From Karstenula rhodostoma CBS 690.94 (lineage: Eukaryota > Ascomycota > Dothideomycetes > Pleosporales > Didymosphaeriaceae), in contig MU001492.1 in NCBI GenBank assembly GCA_010093485.1, positions 1,721,122 through 1,785,121 of the forward strand: DNA of 64,000 nucleotides. The letters are read 5' to 3'. The notes under the pieces are model-generated. The model made no database searches, was not told the origin of the DNA, and saw only the letters and a program-made list of their open reading frames with translations. A program made the position numbers and the translations under genes. Shown one piece after another: positions 142 through 9,564 of this stretch. Numbering within the stretch: position 1 is the first letter of the stretch; each line of letters opens with the position of its first letter.

Positions 142-1112
142 CTAAAACTCTGCTTGTACGCAAGTTTCAGGATCATCGATTGCGCAGAGGCCCAGCTCGA
201 CTCCCTTTCCCCATACGTCGGGGACAGTTGCAACTCTCTCCTTGGCCCACTCTTGCACTTTACCAAAGTCTCTACATTGATGTATGACACCTGTCCTCCC
301 CGTCGACTTGCCAGTCTTCTCGCTGTACTGATATACGATAGGCGTAACATCGCTCTCGCACATCGCCGACTGCCTCAACATCTCGATGCAGTGGTCTGCA
401 TGTACGATATCCATGAATGACGCCCCACGGTCACGAAGCGCAGCCGTTATGTTGCCGTTGTACATTGTGTAAGGGTTGCTTGTGATGTTGAATTGTGGCT
501 CGTGGAAGTACCATATCGTTTGGCGCAGACGATCTAGGCAATGTAGATTATGAAATACATTCAGTAGCAGAACGTATTCGGATATTTCAGGATCGAGCCA
601 AGGAGTGGCGGAAGCGGTTTTATTGGGTAGGAGACGAGCTTCGGAGGCAGTTATAGCTGTGGGTGAATCTGTGGGCCATCATCAGTTCTCGAGGGTTTAG
701 TAAACGGAGACTGAATTTAGCATACTGTTATAGAGAGCCCGCCAGAGCTTGTTGTTCTTCTCATCTGGAGCACCTTGATATTCGGAATAGCCCGTTCCTT
801 CAACAGAGCTACCGAAAGTAACGATCTTATCGTTTAAAATGCTGTTGGCGGGAGCTAAGCAGAGGTTAATAAAGCCGAGAGTGTGAATCCAGTAAGTAGG
901 ATCTTACAGTATAGTCTGGTAGGTTTCCACGAACTAACTTTTAGCAAGAGACCAATATTCATCATGCAAGACACCGTTAAAAGGCAAAACAGTATGTAAT
1001 GCTTTTTGCCCTTGCTCTGGTTGCGTTGCAGAGCATCTTCCAGAAGGCCTCGCTTCTCTATGTCCGGACTGTTCATCTCAGATGATGATCTATCTTGATA
1101 AGATGTCGCCAT
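142..1112 (-). CDS. UstYa/DUF3328-type oxidase, probable RiPP-modifying enzyme
   Basis: Three exons (1112-908, 854-726, 656-142) join in frame into 282 residues with introns of 53 and 69 bases. The N-terminus is cytosolic-looking, followed by one membrane segment at about residues 38-57. The luminal part carries the family signature: HNLHC at 147-151 and HADHC at 197-201, each followed by L/M-R-Q, then a late CRDF...EW segment. In ustiloxin, phomopsin and related clusters, UstYa homologues oxidise and macrocyclise the core peptide in the secretory pathway; that role is inferred here from family and neighbours. It lies 1 kb from a second HxxHC protein and 2.5 kb from a repeated Kex2-type precursor. 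The length is usual for the family and I see no break. The start is the first ATG ahead of the membrane segment. Confidence 0.88.
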
Positions 1113-2128
1113 CGTATCTAATTCGCTGCCGTGTGGTTCAGGGAATCGAGAGAGGACGTGTGTCGGTCACCCTCAGGAAGGGAAAGGTAGAAGGTTGGTT
1201 ACAATTTCGATGAGATGCACTAGAAGAAACCTAGGCTCCATTGGTCATGTTCTGTGGATTCCGGCTTTGGATCGATATCCTTGAGCGACTGTGTGCCACT
1301 CATCGGTCATCTGGACCCATGATGTCTGCTCAGGCATGGAGGAAACCTAGGATCTTGTCAAAAGCCTGGCGTCGGTGTTGGGCTGCTCCGCTACCGAAAC
1401 CTTTCCGTGCGTAAGAAGTGACTCGCGAGCCGCCACTAGGGCAGCACTAGTACCGAACAGGATAAAGGTCAACGTAATACATGTGTAGAGCGCCGTAGAG
1501 TAACCGCCTGCCTCATTCAGAACACCATCGTAATGTGTTCGGCATCGTATTTGCAACTGCTCTGCCCTCGCTTTCCCAATGCAAAGCTCCAATCTCCTGT
1601 AAGCAGACAACAATGCGATCCCTTATCGAAGCACTAAGTTGAGAAGAGAGCTCCAGGACAAAGCGTTTGCAAGCGATGCATACAAAATCAAAATATGCTA
1701 CCATTTGGTATACGATAGGAAGCATACAGCCTGTTCCATGGGTGTTGTCGTGCTTTCAAGCTTTGCCAATGGCCTGCCATGTTGGGCCTGCTCACTGCCG
1801 CTGACTTGATAGGGAACTATTGCCAAATCAACATGGGGCTAGACATAAGGATTTGGTATCCACATTATGGGACCAATATGCTACTCGACCTACTTTGTCA
1901 CTATTTTCGGCACTCGCCTTGGTACCCAGTCATGTTGAGGCCGTAGCATTTCCGGAACATAAGCACATGCCGGGATTAGCGAGCAAATAGCGTTTGCTTC
2001 TCGCGATAGCTATATTACGTTTTGGTCTTACCAAATCGTTTAATTCTCGTCGAAAGGGAGCTGCTTCCGCTGAATTGTTCTGAATTCCTTCGATCTCTGG
2101 ACACACTTCTCTGGTACAATTGTGCAAC
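1113..2128. other. Intergenic region with two unassigned minus-strand ORF pieces
   Basis: No gene is recognised. Two overlapping minus-strand open stretches (1513-1725 and 1347-1613) lie in different frames. The second encodes a hydrophobic segment (TALYTCITLTFILFGTSAAL) near its C-terminus. They could be two exons of a small membrane protein or a decayed gene, but I could not find a convincing splice pair joining them. The rest probably contains the divergent promoters of the flanking UstYa gene (reading left) and the HxxHC protein (reading right). Confidence 0.35.
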
Positions 2129-2773
2129 ATGGCGCACGGCGCATATGCATACTCTCCCCTCGATTCGCCACATAATGCGGGAACAGAAACCGAACCTACT
2201 TCTCAGCCTTCGAGACCCTATTATCTCCGATACTGGCGAATAGCAACATGCGCAATGTTGCTCTCTTCTCTCGCAGTCGGGGGACTTTTTGCAACACTAT
2301 CACGAACACAAACAACTTTCAATTGCGGGACATCGATCGAAGAAGCACGCGCCCTTGGCTGCCAATTTGATGTAATGTCTTTTACCTGGTCTCATCCGAG
2401 CTGCTTCGATAGACCCCTCATGGACGACTTTCTCGCTCTCAAAAACTGGACATGGTGGTTGCGGAATTCAACTTCGCCCGACTCCAGCGGCGACACGCCT
2501 CTTTCCATTGAAGACATTACGACAGGCCAGTATACGGAGCTCCACGTCACGTGGGACTACCACCTCCATCATTGCACATACATGTGGAGAAAAATGCATC
2601 GAGCGATTCTGAACAACAAGCCTTTAGATGGGTACATTGGCAACTGGGCACATACGACGCACTGTGAGAGCATGTTGCTAGATCGGTCTAGGGCTATGGA
2701 CAGCCGGACAACGATCATCAGAAGGAAATTTCCTGACTGCCCTGGACGAGGGGGCAATACATTCATAGGATGA
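2129..2773 (+). CDS. Small single-pass membrane protein with two HxxHC motifs (UstYa-like, no DUF3328 core)
   Basis: Uninterrupted 214-residue frame beginning at the ATG at 2129. A proline-rich N-terminus leads into a membrane segment at about residues 40-60 (ATCAMLLSSLAVGGLFATL). The external part starts with CGTSIEEARALGCQFD, a signature I recognise from a widespread, poorly characterised Pezizomycotina family. It then shows a WDYHLHHC...MWRKMHRA block and a GYIGNWAHTTHC block, so HLHHC and HTTHC resemble the paired HxxHC sites of UstYa although the rest differs. Such proteins are frequent near secondary-metabolite genes. Because it sits between a UstYa gene and a RiPP precursor, I infer a modifying role, but no function is established by the sequence alone. 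Confidence 0.78.
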   Translation: MAHGAYAYSPLDSPHNAGTETEPTSQPSRPYYLRYWRIATCAMLLSSLAVGGLFATLSRTQTTFNCGTSIEEARALGCQFDVMSFTWSHPSCFDRPLMDDFLALKNWTWWLRNSTSPDSSGDTPLSIEDITTGQYTELHVTWDYHLHHCTYMWRKMHRAILNNKPLDGYIGNWAHTTHCESMLLDRSRAMDSRTTIIRRKFPDCPGRGGNTFIG

Positions 2774-3641
2774 ATTGGGTGCATGCCGACCACTACAAGG
2801 GTCGAGCCCGCCATTCAGGAGAGTTTTGGGTAGCATCCTTGCGAATATCTCTTAGAACCCTGTTTACACTGAAATGTGCCGTGCCGGGTCCAATACGTGA
2901 TATAATTGGCCTGTGGGATACTTTAGGCTGATCTTTTTGCGTCATCCAAAACAATTCGTAGTCCTGAACGCGTGTACCATATCCTGCAGGATTTGAATGT
3001 GCCATCGGACCTAAAAGTGTCGCATGCATGCCAAGCACACACTAAGGTATCTGAGCACACGAAGATTCATCAGCAGAATCCACTTAAGCGATGACTCTCG
3101 AACCGATATCGTACGCTAGAAGTTTTACACTCTACGCACATAGAGCTAAGGGTACCACCTATGCCGTAGGTCCCCACTGTCGGCTTAATCGACACAAGCC
3201 TTACGGCCGGAACGCCAAGCCGACTGCCTTTCGATCTTGTGCCTTCCTGTTGCAGGATAAGTGCGGTATTGTGGCTTCTGTTTCTATCTTGGCCTTATCA
3301 TATACACAGGTGCCATGTACGTTCACGACCCTGCATGAGCTGATGTACGTTCCCGAAGAAGATAATGCTTCGTAGCTTCTACCAAGTGATCCCTGAATCA
3401 ACATAATTAGTTCTGCTCTGAGTTGACTTAGTTTGAAGGACGATACGCGCTTGCATGTTGGTAGTTCCCGATATCATGTAATCGATCCCAGTACCCTCGG
3501 TTCAAAGTCCCGCCTCGTAGGCCATCCCCAGGTATAAAGTTCCGAGAGGACACCCCTCAATAGTCCATCGGTCAACTCAGTTCAGCTGCTCCTACAATCA
3601 ATTTTTTTACCCTCTTCATTGCAGTGCCGCTATCAATCATC
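2774..3641. promoter_or_regulatory. 868-bp intergenic region, promoter of the RiPP precursor
   Basis: No convincing gene. A minus-strand open stretch at 2793-3038 is probably chance. Towards the right end, TATAAA at 3533-3538 lies 104 bp ahead of the precursor ATG, followed by a pyrimidine-rich stretch (TTTTTTTACCCTCTTC) just before the start, both typical of a fungal core promoter and leader. The GGTTCAAAGTCC at about 3499-3510 resembles a tRNA B box, but no tRNA can be folded around it. Confidence 0.45.
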
Positions 3642-4097
3642 ATGAAGCTCTCAACGATGACCCTGTGTGCCTTTACTGCATCGGCCAGCGCTTTGGCTGT
3701 GCCCAAGGAGTCAACCGCAGAGGTGGACGTCCAAGCATTCCCTACCTGGATAAAACGTGCCCAATTACCAAAAGCCGAAGTCGACGCAAAGGCTTTCCCT
3801 GATTGGATCAAGAAGCGCGAGGGAGCCGATGCGGAGGTGGATGCGGCAGCTTTCCCTGGTTGGATCAAGAAGCGCGAGGGAGCCGATGCGGAGGTGGATG
3901 CGGCAGCTTTCCCTGGTTGGATCAAGAAGCGCGAGGGAGCCGATGCAGAGGTGGATGCGGCAGCTTTCCCTGGTTGGATCAAGAAGCGCGAGGGAGCCGA
4001 TGCAGAGGTGGATGCGGCAGCCTTTCCGACCTGGATCAAGGAGCGTAAAGAAGAAGAAGCGAAAGTCGATGCCAAGGCCTTTCCCGATTGGATTTAG
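3642..4097 (+). CDS. Secreted repeat precursor, candidate dikaritin-type (Kex2-processed) RiPP precursor
   Basis: Intronless 151-residue protein. Residues 1-18 form a signal peptide (MKLSTMTLCAFTASASALA) and a short linker follows. Then come seven 19-residue repeats, each an acidic spacer (EGADAEVDAAA type) leading to FPxWI and a dibasic site. The x residue in order is T, D, G, G, G, T, D. Repeat 1 ends in KR, repeats 2-5 in KKR, repeat 6 in KERK without a clean dibasic pair, and the last ends at the stop after I. Signal peptide, repeats, acidic spacers and KR sites directly after a short hydrophobic/aromatic core are the architecture of ustiloxin-class precursors cut by the Kex2 protease in the Golgi. 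The core is probably FPGWI or a slightly longer form. UstYa-type genes are immediately upstream. Start chosen at the ATG that gives a standard signal peptide. Confidence 0.88.
   Translation: MKLSTMTLCAFTASASALAVPKESTAEVDVQAFPTWIKRAQLPKAEVDAKAFPDWIKKREGADAEVDAAAFPGWIKKREGADAEVDAAAFPGWIKKREGADAEVDAAAFPGWIKKREGADAEVDAAAFPTWIKERKEEEAKVDAKAFPDWI
3717..4094 (+). repeat. 57-bp tandem coding repeat, 7 units
   Basis: Seven in-frame units of 57 bp encode the 19-residue precursor repeat; the last is cut to 12 residues by the stop. Units 3-5 are almost identical at DNA level, differing mainly at gcGgaggtgg/gcAgaggtgg, while the outer units 1, 2, 6 and 7 are more diverged. This suggests recent expansion or homogenisation of the centre. 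Several other frames stay open through the array only because of the repeat. Confidence 0.93.
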
Positions 4098-5871: not shown

Positions 5872-7914
5872 CTACAAACTGATCCAACGACCCATCCATT
5901 CCTCCACGATCTGCTTAGCCTCATCGACAAGACCCATGTCAAGTAGAAGCTGCGTCGTTCCACGGACCGCCGAGTCAAGAGCCGAGTAAATCCAGGCGTG
6001 CGTGTAGCTTGTGTGCTCGCCAATGAAGATAGTGTTGGCCTCAGTCTTGTAGTAAGCCGGCAGGTAAAGATCTTGCTGACCAAGAAGAGGATCAGCCCAA
6101 GCTCCAGCCTGATGCTCATCGGTCTCCCAGCATTGTCGGTCGAACGCGCCGGTGAACTGCTCGGCAGCGACGTCGCCGTGTACTTCGACCATCGCTCTCT
6201 GCACCCGTGCGACGTGGTCCTCGGTGCTCAATGCGGCCAGCGAGCGTGCTGCAGTTCCACTGCTGTACGAAGCAAGGATGACACCGGGCCTGGTAGAGTT
6301 GATCTGGTATGAGGGGTAGCAGACAGAGCCGATGCCATAGATGTCGACGGCGCCGCAGCCGCCGATAATAGGCTCATCCAAATGCTCCCAGAAACGGGTT
6401 TTGTATCTGAGAGAAACCTTGCAGGATTGCTCATAGTTCATCGTTTGGATGGCGCGAGTCAACAGAGAGGAGTACTTCGGGAGGGACCATGTCCTAACCT
6501 TGGAGAACGGTACCGCAACAACTGCATAGTCGTAATCCTCGGTCTCAGGCTCCATCGCGAACTGGTTTTGACGCCAAGAGAGGGTAACCTTGCCAGTGTC
6601 GTTGCTGTACAGGATGCCATCAATCTTGCGACCAAGCGTAAGCTTATCCTGGACGTGAGGGTAGAAAGCACGAGGAAGCGACTCCAAGCCTTTGTCAATT
6701 GTGCGCCAGGTGGTAGCTCCGAAGTATACGGAATCATATAAATCCCACATGGGGTCGCTGCCCGAACCAACAACGTAATCGACCATATCCTGGGTCATGT
6801 TCAGGTGATACCTCAGGTAGGCAGCTTCGGACCAGTGGAAAAGGCCCCTCTCGATCGCCTCCTTATGAGCCTTGTAGATGTTCTGAGATGCGTTTCTCAA
6901 GCGCTCCGGAGTCTCGTCGTAGAAAGCGGATAGTGCGTCTTCCGCTTTCGTGACGACTTCCTCATCATAGTCATCTGGCTTGGAAGCGGGCAGTACCAAG
7001 CTGGAGTTGGCCTTGACCTGGGCTGCGCTAGGAATGCGACCATTCGGCAACCGGTATCCATTCGAGTTGGCGGGGACGTTCGGGCTGGCTTGAATCCATG
7101 GAATGAAGTTGACTGCCAGTGATGAATCGTTGCCGTTCAACTTGTTCAGCGTATCGGCAAGTTGGAACACCATCTTGTGATCATTGATGTCGAGCGTCTC
7201 GTTGGTGTCAGTGTACTTTGTGCTGACAGGGAATCTCATGGGACCCATCTCCTGGTATTGGTATTGATCAGGTGTGGTTCCAGCAAGGTACTTGGTCCTT
7301 ATACGACCTCCAATGCGCTGTGAGCTCTCGGTGATGTGCCAGTCGTTGATTCCGACAGATGCTAGTAGATGGCTTGTCAACAATCCAGACATGCCTCCGC
7401 CAATGATGGCGATCTTCTTGCTCTTTTCAACCGCAACGAACGAGTTGTTGTTCGATTTGTTCTGCAGGTAGGCGACGCCGTCGAACCATGGGCCACTCCA
7501 GTCCGAGATCTTGGACATGTCTTCTCGTTTCCGGAAGTTCCTGGTAATAGCGATGGGTGCTGAGCGACCAATGAGAGAAGATCCAGAATATGCGTGAAGG
7601 CAGCCTCCGTGTACAGCTTCATCTGGAACGAGCCAGACTAAACGTTCCGGGCGGGCATCGCGTCGGAAAAAGGTCGATCCAAGCTCGTGGTGTCGTTCAT
7701 GGCTGCCGGCCATGTCACATGCTCCGTAGACAACCTGGACGTCTCCCTCAAAGGAGTCATCGCCGTATCCAATATGGACATTTTGCACAGAGTCCGATGA
7801 AACCTGGAAAGGGCCTTTGAAGTGAATGATGTCTGAGCGACCGTTGATGGCGCCAGCAGCCACGCTGCCTGCCACAGAGAGCACAGCAGACGATGTATTG
7901 AGGATGCCCTTCAT
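5872..7914 (-). CDS. Secreted L-amino-acid-oxidase-like flavin amine oxidase
   Basis: Intronless, 680 residues. The ATG at 7914 gives a signal-peptide-like N-terminus (MKGILNTSSAVLSVAGSVAAG); the frame is open slightly further but only from a non-ATG codon. After an N-terminal domain of about 165 residues, the FAD-binding Rossmann motif IAIIGGGMSGL (about 167-177) is followed by the acidic end of the second strand and RIGGRIRT. EMGPMRFP is the typical active-site loop region. The C-terminus carries IFIGEHTSYTHAWIYSALDSAVRG, the second FAD-contact motif of fungal and snake-venom type L-amino-acid oxidases. Such enzymes oxidatively deaminate amino acids to imino acids, hydrogen peroxide and ammonia. 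The RidA-type gene 1.65 kb away could handle the imine product. Substrate is not predictable. Confidence 0.87.
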   Translation of the reverse strand: MKGILNTSSAVLSVAGSVAAGAINGRSDIIHFKGPFQVSSDSVQNVHIGYGDDSFEGDVQVVYGACDMAGSHERHHELGSTFFRRDARPERLVWLVPDEAVHGGCLHAYSGSSLIGRSAPIAITRNFRKREDMSKISDWSGPWFDGVAYLQNKSNNNSFVAVEKSKKIAIIGGGMSGLLTSHLLASVGINDWHITESSQRIGGRIRTKYLAGTTPDQYQYQEMGPMRFPVSTKYTDTNETLDINDHKMVFQLADTLNKLNGNDSSLAVNFIPWIQASPNVPANSNGYRLPNGRIPSAAQVKANSSLVLPASKPDDYDEEVVTKAEDALSAFYDETPERLRNASQNIYKAHKEAIERGLFHWSEAAYLRYHLNMTQDMVDYVVGSGSDPMWDLYDSVYFGATTWRTIDKGLESLPRAFYPHVQDKLTLGRKIDGILYSNDTGKVTLSWRQNQFAMEPETEDYDYAVVAVPFSKVRTWSLPKYSSLLTRAIQTMNYEQSCKVSLRYKTRFWEHLDEPIIGGCGAVDIYGIGSVCYPSYQINSTRPGVILASYSSGTAARSLAALSTEDHVARVQRAMVEVHGDVAAEQFTGAFDRQCWETDEHQAGAWADPLLGQQDLYLPAYYKTEANTIFIGEHTSYTHAWIYSALDSAVRGTTQLLLDMGLVDEAKQIVEEWMGRWISL

Positions 7915-9564
7915 CTTGGTTGCAGTCAAGATGATTAGGGTATGAAGAAGGAAGTCGACGTGATTTCAAACATCTAACGATCGTCGCACAGTCTCCCTTT
8001 GTACATCTTCAGAGCCGCCTACACACGGGTTCGCAAGAACATCGGTTAGAAATCCACGACGCCAATCTCACAAATGGTGGAGCTTTGCGGCAACTGCACG
8101 CCCTTCGATAGACACTATCGCTCTATTACCACATCTCTACGCCCGTGCTGACTTGGTATTGTCGCGATAAGACTGTAGAGTCTTGCCAAGGAGCTTTCAA
8201 TGAATCTATGGCACCAATAATGGGGTAGCGATTCGTAAACCTCCCGCTTTCAGGTGACTGGCCTTCTTCAATATGACTGACCTGCATAAGCGATGGCTGC
8301 TCATTGAGCAGTAGCGCGGAGGTGCATTGTGTGCTGCCATTTCGGCGAGTGGAGATCTGCACTCCGATGTGATTTTGTTATCATCTACTCCGATACAATG
8401 CCTGCCAAAGTGGAATCTTAGTAAGACGTTGCCTTTGTCATCAGCAAAACTAAATAGATAGTGACATATTCGATGAACTGCGTTTCTAGCGACAAGAGAA
8501 GCATTTGAACAGTGTAAGCCCTGGAGGACTGTGATGTTCATTGTTAGACTGCAGACCATGTCTAACCAGGGAATCAATCCAGCACTCTTCCTTTGTGTGC
8601 GCGCTGTTCCGACCGGTAGTCCGTAGAACATTCGAATGGTTCGCTTGCAGGCTAGCCTTCGCGTAAAGATCCCGCACAAACGGCCTTTCTGGGAACTAAA
8701 TCTCAGGCCGGTCTTCGCAACTAACAGCACTCGTGGCGAGGTGAAATCCGAGTCCCTCTCGCCGAGAATGGGTGGAACCACTATCTTGGACTAAGTCGGC
8801 ACATCGATTGATGCAGCTAATAGCACTTGTGGTAATCGAAGCGAGTCGCCTTTATACCGCAAGCGGTTAGACCAACTACAATCAACCGCGCTAACCCTTG
8901 CCAGATCCTTGTATGGCGCCGATGCCTTATCTCTTATGGTTTTCTGATTGTTGACTCAAACTACAAAGTAGTGTCCCGTAAAGCGATAGACAAATATGGA
9001 CATAGACTCCTTATCTCTATTCGAATGCCATGAACTCTTTATCTGTATTTACGTCAGGTCCCCCTCCCGCCTTACACATTATCAGACATTCGAAGCCCAG
9101 CATGCATACTCACCCGGCTAGATGGATCCGCATATTCACGGCTACCACGCGGCCGTCATGCCGTCGCAAATGAGAGTCGAGGACACACGCGCGTATCCCG
9201 CGCGTAGATTGAGAACCTCACTCGTCCCATCCGCGCGACCCCACGAGGTCGGTACAGCATGGGAGACCAAGATAACGATATCCGCCGGCGGGACGTTCCA
9301 CTGGCCATTGCCCTGGCCGTCGGGATAGCCAAGAAATGCCCAGAGGTTCGCGACGTCAACAACTGTACAATGGGGTCTTGAATATGCAGAGCGAACTCGG
9401 TTGCATTCGACGGGCGTAAGAGTTGGAAGCTTTGGTGAGCAGAGTAGCCTTGGAGCAGATTGAGAATTTGCTGCAATACACTATAAGACCGAGAAGGTCC
9501 CCGCCGTCCAAATGTACAGACACTTCTTTTAATCTATCATCGCCTGAATCCCGCTTCTATCAAA
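7915..9564. other. Long intergenic region between the flavin oxidase and RidA genes
   Basis: No gene is supported. The longest open frame (8206-8781, minus) has no recognisable domain and an improbable composition. The two flanking genes are transcribed outward from this region, so it contains both promoters. No clear repeat was seen. Confidence 0.5.

Follow-up and report, generated by a model that had tools for sequence, protein, structure and literature searches.

A total of 1758 fungal repeat precursors encoded beside DUF3328 (UstYa) genes have been catalogued (PMC7329392), and few of their products are known. The characterized products named there, i.e. ustiloxins, asperipin-2a, and phomopsins, use Tyr, and the Tyr content is raised in precursors beside DUF3328 genes (65.6% vs 38.2%; PMC7329392). 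Here, we describe a locus of Karstenula rhodostoma CBS 690.94 in the 64,000-nucleotide stretch of DNA shown above (the window), which is part of a 3.08-Mb contig (C1; 3083553 nt) in a 44.3-Mb genome. It is composed of a repeat precursor gene, a UstYa/DUF3328 gene, and a gene for a second membrane protein with HxxHC motifs, which is referred to as the partner. On balance, we favor the reading that this is a minimal dikaritin-like cluster for a fungal ribosomally synthesized and post-translationally modified peptide (RiPP), in which a Kex2-released peptide would be oxidized, possibly at Trp, by copper enzymes to give a predicted product. What is new here is the second enzyme family and the Trp core, as the combination of a Kex2-repeat precursor with a neighboring DUF3328 gene is already on record. 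As a test case, the locus is small, with apparently three genes, a conserved core that contains Trp but no Tyr, and a natural library of three variants at one position (T, D, or G).

The closest described systems share parts of this layout. The cluster peptidase of ustiloxin and phomopsin is of the S41 family. Like the locus described here, these two systems have a secreted multi-copy precursor, Kex2 sites, and adjoining DUF3328 genes, with two DUF3328 proteins in the case of ustiloxin, but they need a tyrosinase (PMC7329392). Here, the precursor is free of Tyr, none of the 33 genome matches to tyrosinase PF00264 at E <= 0.001 is on contig C1, none of the five genome matches to S41 peptidase PF03572 at E <= 0.001 is on that contig either, and the second HxxHC protein falls outside DUF3328 by the Pfam cut-off. 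Both searches were run exon by exon, from which a heavily interrupted gene could escape. The lack of tyrosinase and S41-peptidase matches on C1 is consistent with the Tyr-free precursor. Asperipin-2a is likewise made by DUF3328 chemistry from a repeat precursor; it differs in being Tyr-based, with an ether from Tyr phenol O to Phe C-beta formed at a dicopper site (PMC12186524), and in having one DUF3328 protein (PMC7329392). Victorin, a multi-core fungal RiPP grouped with the dikaritins, is cyclized via Phe and Leu instead of Tyr (PMC9233826), which suggests that Tyr is not obligatory or universal in the wider dikaritin class. It differs from this locus in that it has another core, is chlorinated, and has cluster-encoded peptidases (PMC9233826).

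For Trp, two further systems offer comparisons. In type P-3 of the Kex2-processed repeat proteins (KEPs), found in Fonsecaea, Cladophialophora, Galerina, Psilocybe, and Coprinellus, repeats with Trp are accompanied by Pro, and four of the seven members have DUF3328 neighbors (PMC7329392); they are likened to the repeats described here by description, not by sequence. The plant burpitide cyclases of the lyciumin type are copper enzymes with four conserved His residues, to which the four-His plane of the cyclochlorotine hydroxylase CctR has been likened (PMC12435403). As plant enzymes likened to this locus by chemistry alone, they are a chemical precedent for Trp only. This precedent is given in PMC12186524, which also cites macrocyclization by a DUF3328 enzyme. 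In the literature covered, with most subscription journals outside the search, we recognized no description of the second HxxHC family or of a Trp-linked UstYa-type product.

An earlier note on this DNA had proposed the locus as a candidate cluster of the dikaritin type. Its repeat precursor beside a DUF3328 gene agrees with that proposal, whereas the lack of Tyr in the core, the lack of tyrosinase and S41-peptidase matches on the contig, and the lack of a methyltransferase among 16 neighboring open reading frames (ORFs) scanned with Pfam (no genome-wide methyltransferase search was made) do not. We consider the locus likely to be a UstYa-class RiPP cluster but find no justification for the dikaritin label in its strict sense.

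Layout of the locus

The three genes are as follows.

142..1112, minus strand, UstYa/DUF3328 gene (286-residue splice model; PF11807, 107.7 bits on the exon 3 ORF)
2129..2773, plus strand, partner gene, putative single-pass membrane protein with HLHHC and HTTHC (214 residues, intronless)
3642..4097, plus strand, repeat precursor gene (151 residues)

The UstYa and partner genes are divergently oriented, with 1 kb between them, and the precursor gene is within 1 kb downstream of the partner gene. The locus is at the left edge of the window, as stated previously, but this edge is not a contig end, and a further 30 kb leftward was retrieved.

The repeat precursor

The precursor has a hydrophobic N-terminus, whose best 12-residue hydropathy is 1.67. 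It holds seven copies of FPxWI, all within AFPxWI, in which x is T, D, G, G, G, T, and D in order.

3642..3698, plus strand, putative signal peptide, about residues 1-19 (assigned by eye and hydropathy; no signal-peptide predictor used)
3738..3752, plus strand, core copy 1, FPTWI, followed by KR
3795..3809, plus strand, core copy 2, FPDWI, followed by KKR
3852..3866, plus strand, core copy 3, FPGWI, followed by KKR
3909..3923, plus strand, core copy 4, FPGWI, followed by KKR
3966..3980, plus strand, core copy 5, FPGWI, followed by KKR
4023..4037, plus strand, core copy 6, FPTWI, followed by KER (weak Kex2 site or none)
4080..4094, plus strand, core copy 7, FPDWI, followed directly by the stop codon

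The signal peptide and the seven repeats reported in the earlier note are both found. The repeats had also been described as KR-bounded, which is true of five of the seven (one KR and four KKR), since KER comes after the sixth and the stop codon after the seventh. Because copy 7 ends at Ile before the stop, the Ile of WI is suggested as the mature C-terminus of all copies. With five KR sites, seven related copies, and a hydrophobic N-terminus, the precursor is a KEP.

Two or more FPxWI occurred in none of 100000 residue shuffles of the precursor. Part of the gene is a tandem repeat of 57 nt (4.1 copies, 98% matches). A 23-base pattern encoding FPxWIK plus a K/R-like codon two places on has five matches in the genome, all of them in the precursor gene. 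In the 21 pairwise comparisons of copies, all 46 differences in the A-F-P-W-I codons are synonymous, whereas the three x positions have 58 non-synonymous and 34 synonymous differences. Because copies 3-5 do not differ in the stretch compared, the pairs are non-independent and amount to about five informative units. The V and D of the repeat unit are likewise unchanged between copies. In the protein database, no relative of the precursor was found at E <= 1 among 7993 scored candidates, a result whose reservation attaches to the query.

In every Kex2 fragment, the conserved motif is the C-terminal part, and alpha-factor has its conserved motif at the same end of its Kex2 fragments. This likeness favors an explanation by linear secreted signaling peptides of the pheromone or KEP kind, in which the adjoining HxxHC genes would act on something else. 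So does the finding that DUF3328 is absent from the 15 closest genes for 78% of fungal repeat precursors (6120 of 7878; PMC7329392), and so does the true pheromone gene of this genome, which was not located by two exact PYGxPxG patterns. We nevertheless consider this explanation rather unlikely. The alpha-pheromone motif of Pleosporales is usually PYGxPxG, and FPxWI fits neither of the Dothideomycetes pheromone subgroups described in PMC6339444, on which ground the identity of the precursor as an alpha-pheromone was rejected. Pheromone and mating-factor genes have no DUF3328 neighbors, with only three exceptions (PMC7329392). Two observations described below, namely that repeat precursors are found next to UstYa genes in this genome and that the UstYa/partner pair recurs, also argue against linear signaling peptides. 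As for the pheromone itself, the two exact patterns revealed no repeated PYGxPxG locus in the genome, a looser pattern gave 18 scattered matches vs 37 in the reversed control, and a two-Cys pattern gave eight scattered matches vs four in the reversed control.

The UstYa protein and its partner

The minus-strand ORF 145-678, which contains exon 3, matches PF11807 far above the cut-off of 25 bits, and the protein belongs to the UstYa/DUF3328 family. The splice model was our pick from the 18 frame-compatible intron combinations printed.

1112-908, 854-726, and 668-142 (stop included), minus strand, UstYa exons; introns 907-855 (GTAAGA..AG) and 725-669 (GTATGC..AG)

The model has HNLHC and HADHC in exon 3 and one hydrophobic stretch near residue 39, so the UstYa protein with both HxxHC motifs reported previously holds, in the form of a spliced minus-strand gene. 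The deposited protein, P171DRAFT_438445, has 236 residues; it starts further inside and is without the N-terminal part of the 286-residue model. The predicted fold of the UstYa protein has a predicted local distance difference test score (pLDDT) of 56 and is too poor for use. A PDB sequence search with one UstYa alignment gave no match, and NCBIfam gave no match for either the UstYa protein or the partner.

The partner carries HLHHC at residues 145-149 and HTTHC at residues 175-179, and a hydrophobic stretch starts at about residue 38. The second HxxHC membrane protein of the earlier note is thus present, with the correction that it is not a recognized DUF3328 member, as it reaches 12.8 bits against PF11807. 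A search of 5.8 billion proteins returned 39 family proteins including the partner itself, i.e. 38 relatives, none having a precomputed Pfam domain. Their named hosts are Exophiala spinifera, Aureobasidium pullulans, Cadophora, Metarhizium anisopliae, Penicillium angulare, and Rhypophila decipiens. The putative copper ligands His145, His148, Cys149, His175, His178, and Cys179 are invariant in the alignment of all 39 members. A UstYa Pfam match at E <= 1 is obtained for one of the 39, namely the partner of the window itself. Among the three partner paralogues in the genome, two match PF11807 at 13.3 and 14.1 bits across much of the model, and the third, a 96-residue exon piece, gives no match.

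Aligned by hhalign, the partner family and UstYa have both HxxHC motifs in register with a probability of 7.9% (3.2% with smaller alignments). The score of 26.8 is higher than that of the best of 100 decoys (25.8; 99 column-shuffled, one reversed), although only over the paired motifs. We read this as distant kinship or as convergence on the same metal site, not as membership. On this reading, the partner belongs to a separate family without a Pfam model. Its AlphaFold2 model (pLDDT 87.5) places the motifs on two predicted helices, residues 142-161 and 173-184, after the membrane helix. A fold search with this model revealed no PDB match at E <= 0.001 and 17 weak ones up to E 10, and a PDB sequence search with the partner alignment gave no match.

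The described protein that most helps to interpret these motifs is CctR, a DUF3328 dicopper enzyme using HxxHC(x)nHxxHC (PMC12435403). Like the partner, CctR is a single-pass membrane protein with this motif pair, which in CctR forms a lumenal dicopper site, and its two motif helices follow the membrane helix as they are predicted to do in the partner model. CctR differs from the partner in being a homodimer, in acting on a non-ribosomal peptide, and in being a DUF3328 member (PMC12435403). Its authors postulate an accessory protein, itself unknown, that supplies electrons or Cu(I) (PMC12435403).

Recurrence of the gene pair and of repeat precursors

Elsewhere in the genome, locations are given as contig and position. 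PF11807 has 59 matches in the genome, which fall into 36 loci when matches less than 20 kb apart are pooled. Other partner matches at E < 1e-10 are at C6:1726982, C5:78398, and C2:2683450 (a further one at E 0.37 was disregarded). Two of these paralogues are adjoined by PF11807 matches, at C5:76.8-77.6 kb and C6:1725.3-1725.9 kb. Hence, UstYa adjoins three of the four clear partner genes (window, C5, and C6), and a repeat precursor is also present at two of the four. The second precursor is in the C5 locus (C5:75-79 kb), at 75190-75807 on the minus strand; its units contain VDQAFVNVAYYGLK, and it is preceded by a signal-peptide-like exon if an intervening intron is assumed. The C5 partner frame is open if one GT-AG intron is assumed.

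A genome search with the deposited UstYa protein of the window gave 23 rows, two of which are the gene itself. The next rows are C5:77375 (54.8 bits), C6:1725697 (53.4 bits), and C2:2640112 (50.8 bits). If ranks were random among the 35 pooled UstYa loci other than that of the window, the chance of the two partner-bearing loci taking the first two places would be about 1/595. As the score margins are small and the matches are only exon pieces, this ranking is supporting, not conclusive.

We then scanned 10 of the 36 UstYa loci (199 kb), picked for top score, a partner gene, or practical reasons, for repeat precursors, defined by at least three Kex2 segments with a 5-mer in common. Of the 12 raw hits, two were of low complexity (C6 and C11) and three duplicated another hit in an alternate frame or in antisense (two in C18, one in the window); without these five, seven precursors remain at five of the 10 loci. 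The precursors are in C5 (two), C18 (two), C2:2637 kb, C1:222 kb, and the window, and none was found in the scanned UstYa regions of C6, C8, C5:1399 kb, C11, and C4. The published survey (PMC7329392) provides the stronger basis for the association of precursors with UstYa genes. The claim that the three genes act together thus has further support besides their adjacency, as the pair recurs, once with a precursor, and precursors occur at five of 10 UstYa regions vs none in a small control of 81 kb; the joint pathway stays a prediction.

Several observations weigh against a RiPP cluster of this kind. Trp content is not raised in precursors beside DUF3328 genes (20.5% vs 24.5%; PMC7329392), so that a Trp core would be an atypical substrate. 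The precursor has no significant similarity to the six other precursors of this genome (shuffle p 0.16-0.99; 0.19 for the one of C5). Only 4% of 200 bootstrap trees unite the three paired UstYa genes in a single clade; the trees were built from 24 rows (21 from this genome and three from the database) and 62 columns, without C2:2640 kb (the third-best paralogue) and C18:134 kb. In this tree, the path distances from the window copy are 1.31 to an Arthroderma protein, 1.76 to C5, 2.11 to C6, and 2.65 to C7. The C5 UstYa pieces are in different frames. At C6:1725.0-1725.9 kb, UstYa has in-frame stops beside an intact partner frame and there is no repeat precursor near, and this locus is probably a decaying pair, as judged from its frames. 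The fourth partner gene, C2:2683300-2683998, has neither a UstYa gene nor a repeat precursor in the surrounding 20 kb retrieved. Finally, the support from the 81-kb control (54 kb of the window and 27 kb left of it), which contains no precursor hit, is limited by its small size; about 2.8 precursors would be expected at the rate of the UstYa regions, and zero has a chance of about 6%.

The decay at C6, together with the abundance of UstYa matches in the genome, would also suit an explanation in which the UstYa/partner pair is left over from another cluster and has the repeat gene beside it by chance. We regard this as very improbable. Both enzymes of the window have open frames and both motifs, the ligand residues are invariant in the partner family, the core is conserved between copies, and a second locus (C5) has the same three kinds of genes.

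Proposed pathway

Gene order and spacing, recurrence of the pair, occurrence of precursors beside UstYa genes, conservation of the core, and the copper logic of DUF3328 enzymes all count for a minimal dikaritin-like RiPP cluster. We infer that the three genes share a common pathway with the following chemistry and product. The precursor would enter the secretory pathway by its signal-like N-terminus. Kex2 would cleave after KR, and a Kex1-like carboxypeptidase would remove the basic residues to leave peptides ending in ...VDxxAFPxWI-COOH, which is suggested by the cleavage sites and by the last copy ending at Ile. The cluster seems to consist of three genes, with the processing left to Kex2 and Kex1, which we take to be the general processing enzymes for the precursor in this fungus. 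The membrane-anchored UstYa protein and its partner, with their HxxHC(x)nHxxHC sites, would then oxidize AFPxWI with copper and O2, by analogy with CctR. The most likely target is the conserved Trp beside the conserved Ile, as the precursor is Tyr-free and the contig has no tyrosinase match, and a cross-linked or otherwise oxidized peptide would result in three variants (x being T, D, or G). The cyclic peptide put forward in the earlier note stays at the level of prediction. The partner may be a second subunit or a second oxidase, as UstYb is to UstYa, or alternatively may supply electrons or Cu(I), as the CctR authors postulated for their accessory protein.

The computed [M+H]+ values are 690.3610 for AFPGWI, 734.3872 for AFPTWI, and 748.3664 for AFPDWI; 619.3238 for FPGWI, 663.3501 for FPTWI, and 677.3293 for FPDWI; and 1618.7383 for EGADAEVDAAAFPGWI. 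A cross-link would shift them by -2.0157 and a hydroxylation by +15.9949.

The HxxHC enzymes might also leave the peptide linear and hydroxylate, dehydrogenate, or halogenate it instead of closing a macrocycle. Apart from macrocyclization, both hydroxylation and halogenation have been linked to DUF3328 enzymes (PMC12435403; PMC12048977, the latter being a survey of lichens), and the title of a cited paper credits UstYa family proteins with the installation of dehydroamino acids in phomopsins. Two HxxHC proteins per precursor, on the other hand, resemble the two cyclization factors of ustiloxin (PMC7329392). Nothing here is decisive, and we give a product without a macrocycle a low probability.

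We advance a bolder version of the copper-oxidation pathway tentatively and think it doubtful. In this version, the HLHHC/HTTHC protein would found an unnamed family of membrane copper proteins and be an obligate partner of certain UstYa proteins, either in a hetero-oligomer or as a donor of electrons or Cu(I), and the pair would make a Trp-macrocyclized RiPP, a fungal counterpart of lyciumin-type chemistry. Where UstYa-type enzymes obtain their electrons or Cu(I) is a question raised in PMC12435403, and the partner would be relevant to it if activity depends on this protein. If its family is an obligate companion of UstYa, genome surveys based on DUF3328 only would overlook it. A Pfam-less HxxHC family traveling with UstYa genes and a Tyr-free Trp core without a tyrosinase at the locus are possibly unexpected for specialists.

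Neighboring genes and other loci

The Pfam scan covered 16 neighboring ORFs, and the left flank beyond 10 kb was inspected by eye only. The nearest Pfam-matched ORF on the right is the following.

5875..7965, minus strand, flavin amine oxidase ORF (PF01593, 140.7 bits)

It is at most a candidate member of the cluster. The other neighbors recognized on the right are an AA9 enzyme, transporters, and EF-Tu-like GTPase, RNA-ligase-like, and flavin oxidoreductase-like ORFs; those on the left are a GH11 xylanase and an acyl-CoA dehydrogenase.

All three pair loci have similar short stretches, at window 8836-9030, C5:74040-74102, and C6:1722384-1722473. A gene common to these loci besides the enzymes was considered and dropped, as the sole C5/C6 match, window 8836-9030, is in stop-filled frames. 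The shared stretch is probably a dispersed repeat in a non-coding context.

The partner gene at C2:2683300-2683998 adjoins a large ORF on the other strand, labeled membrane-transporter-like by eye. Near the UstYa match of C1:222 kb, the core of the repeat precursor at C1:222121-222507 contains Trp (ESIWT), and the frame shown is free of Tyr; Trp cores beside UstYa genes occur at least two times in this genome. The precursor at C2:2637 kb, with a di-His repeat, is the weakest case of the seven. At C5:63460-63903 and 64458-65273, a second precursor (IFESDGALQVDSADASSYAQKR) adjoins a further UstYa gene; its distance from the pair-locus precursor is about 11 kb. At C18:125-137 kb, where there are several UstYa matches, two distinct Kex2-repeat precursors (WYDITYVDKR and RIRPSIKSVGVYATDDGEATKR) were found, and this region probably represents one or two further RiPP clusters. 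At C17:36929-39129, UstYa and tyrosinase matches are within about 2 kb of each other, making this a candidate classical dikaritin-type cluster.

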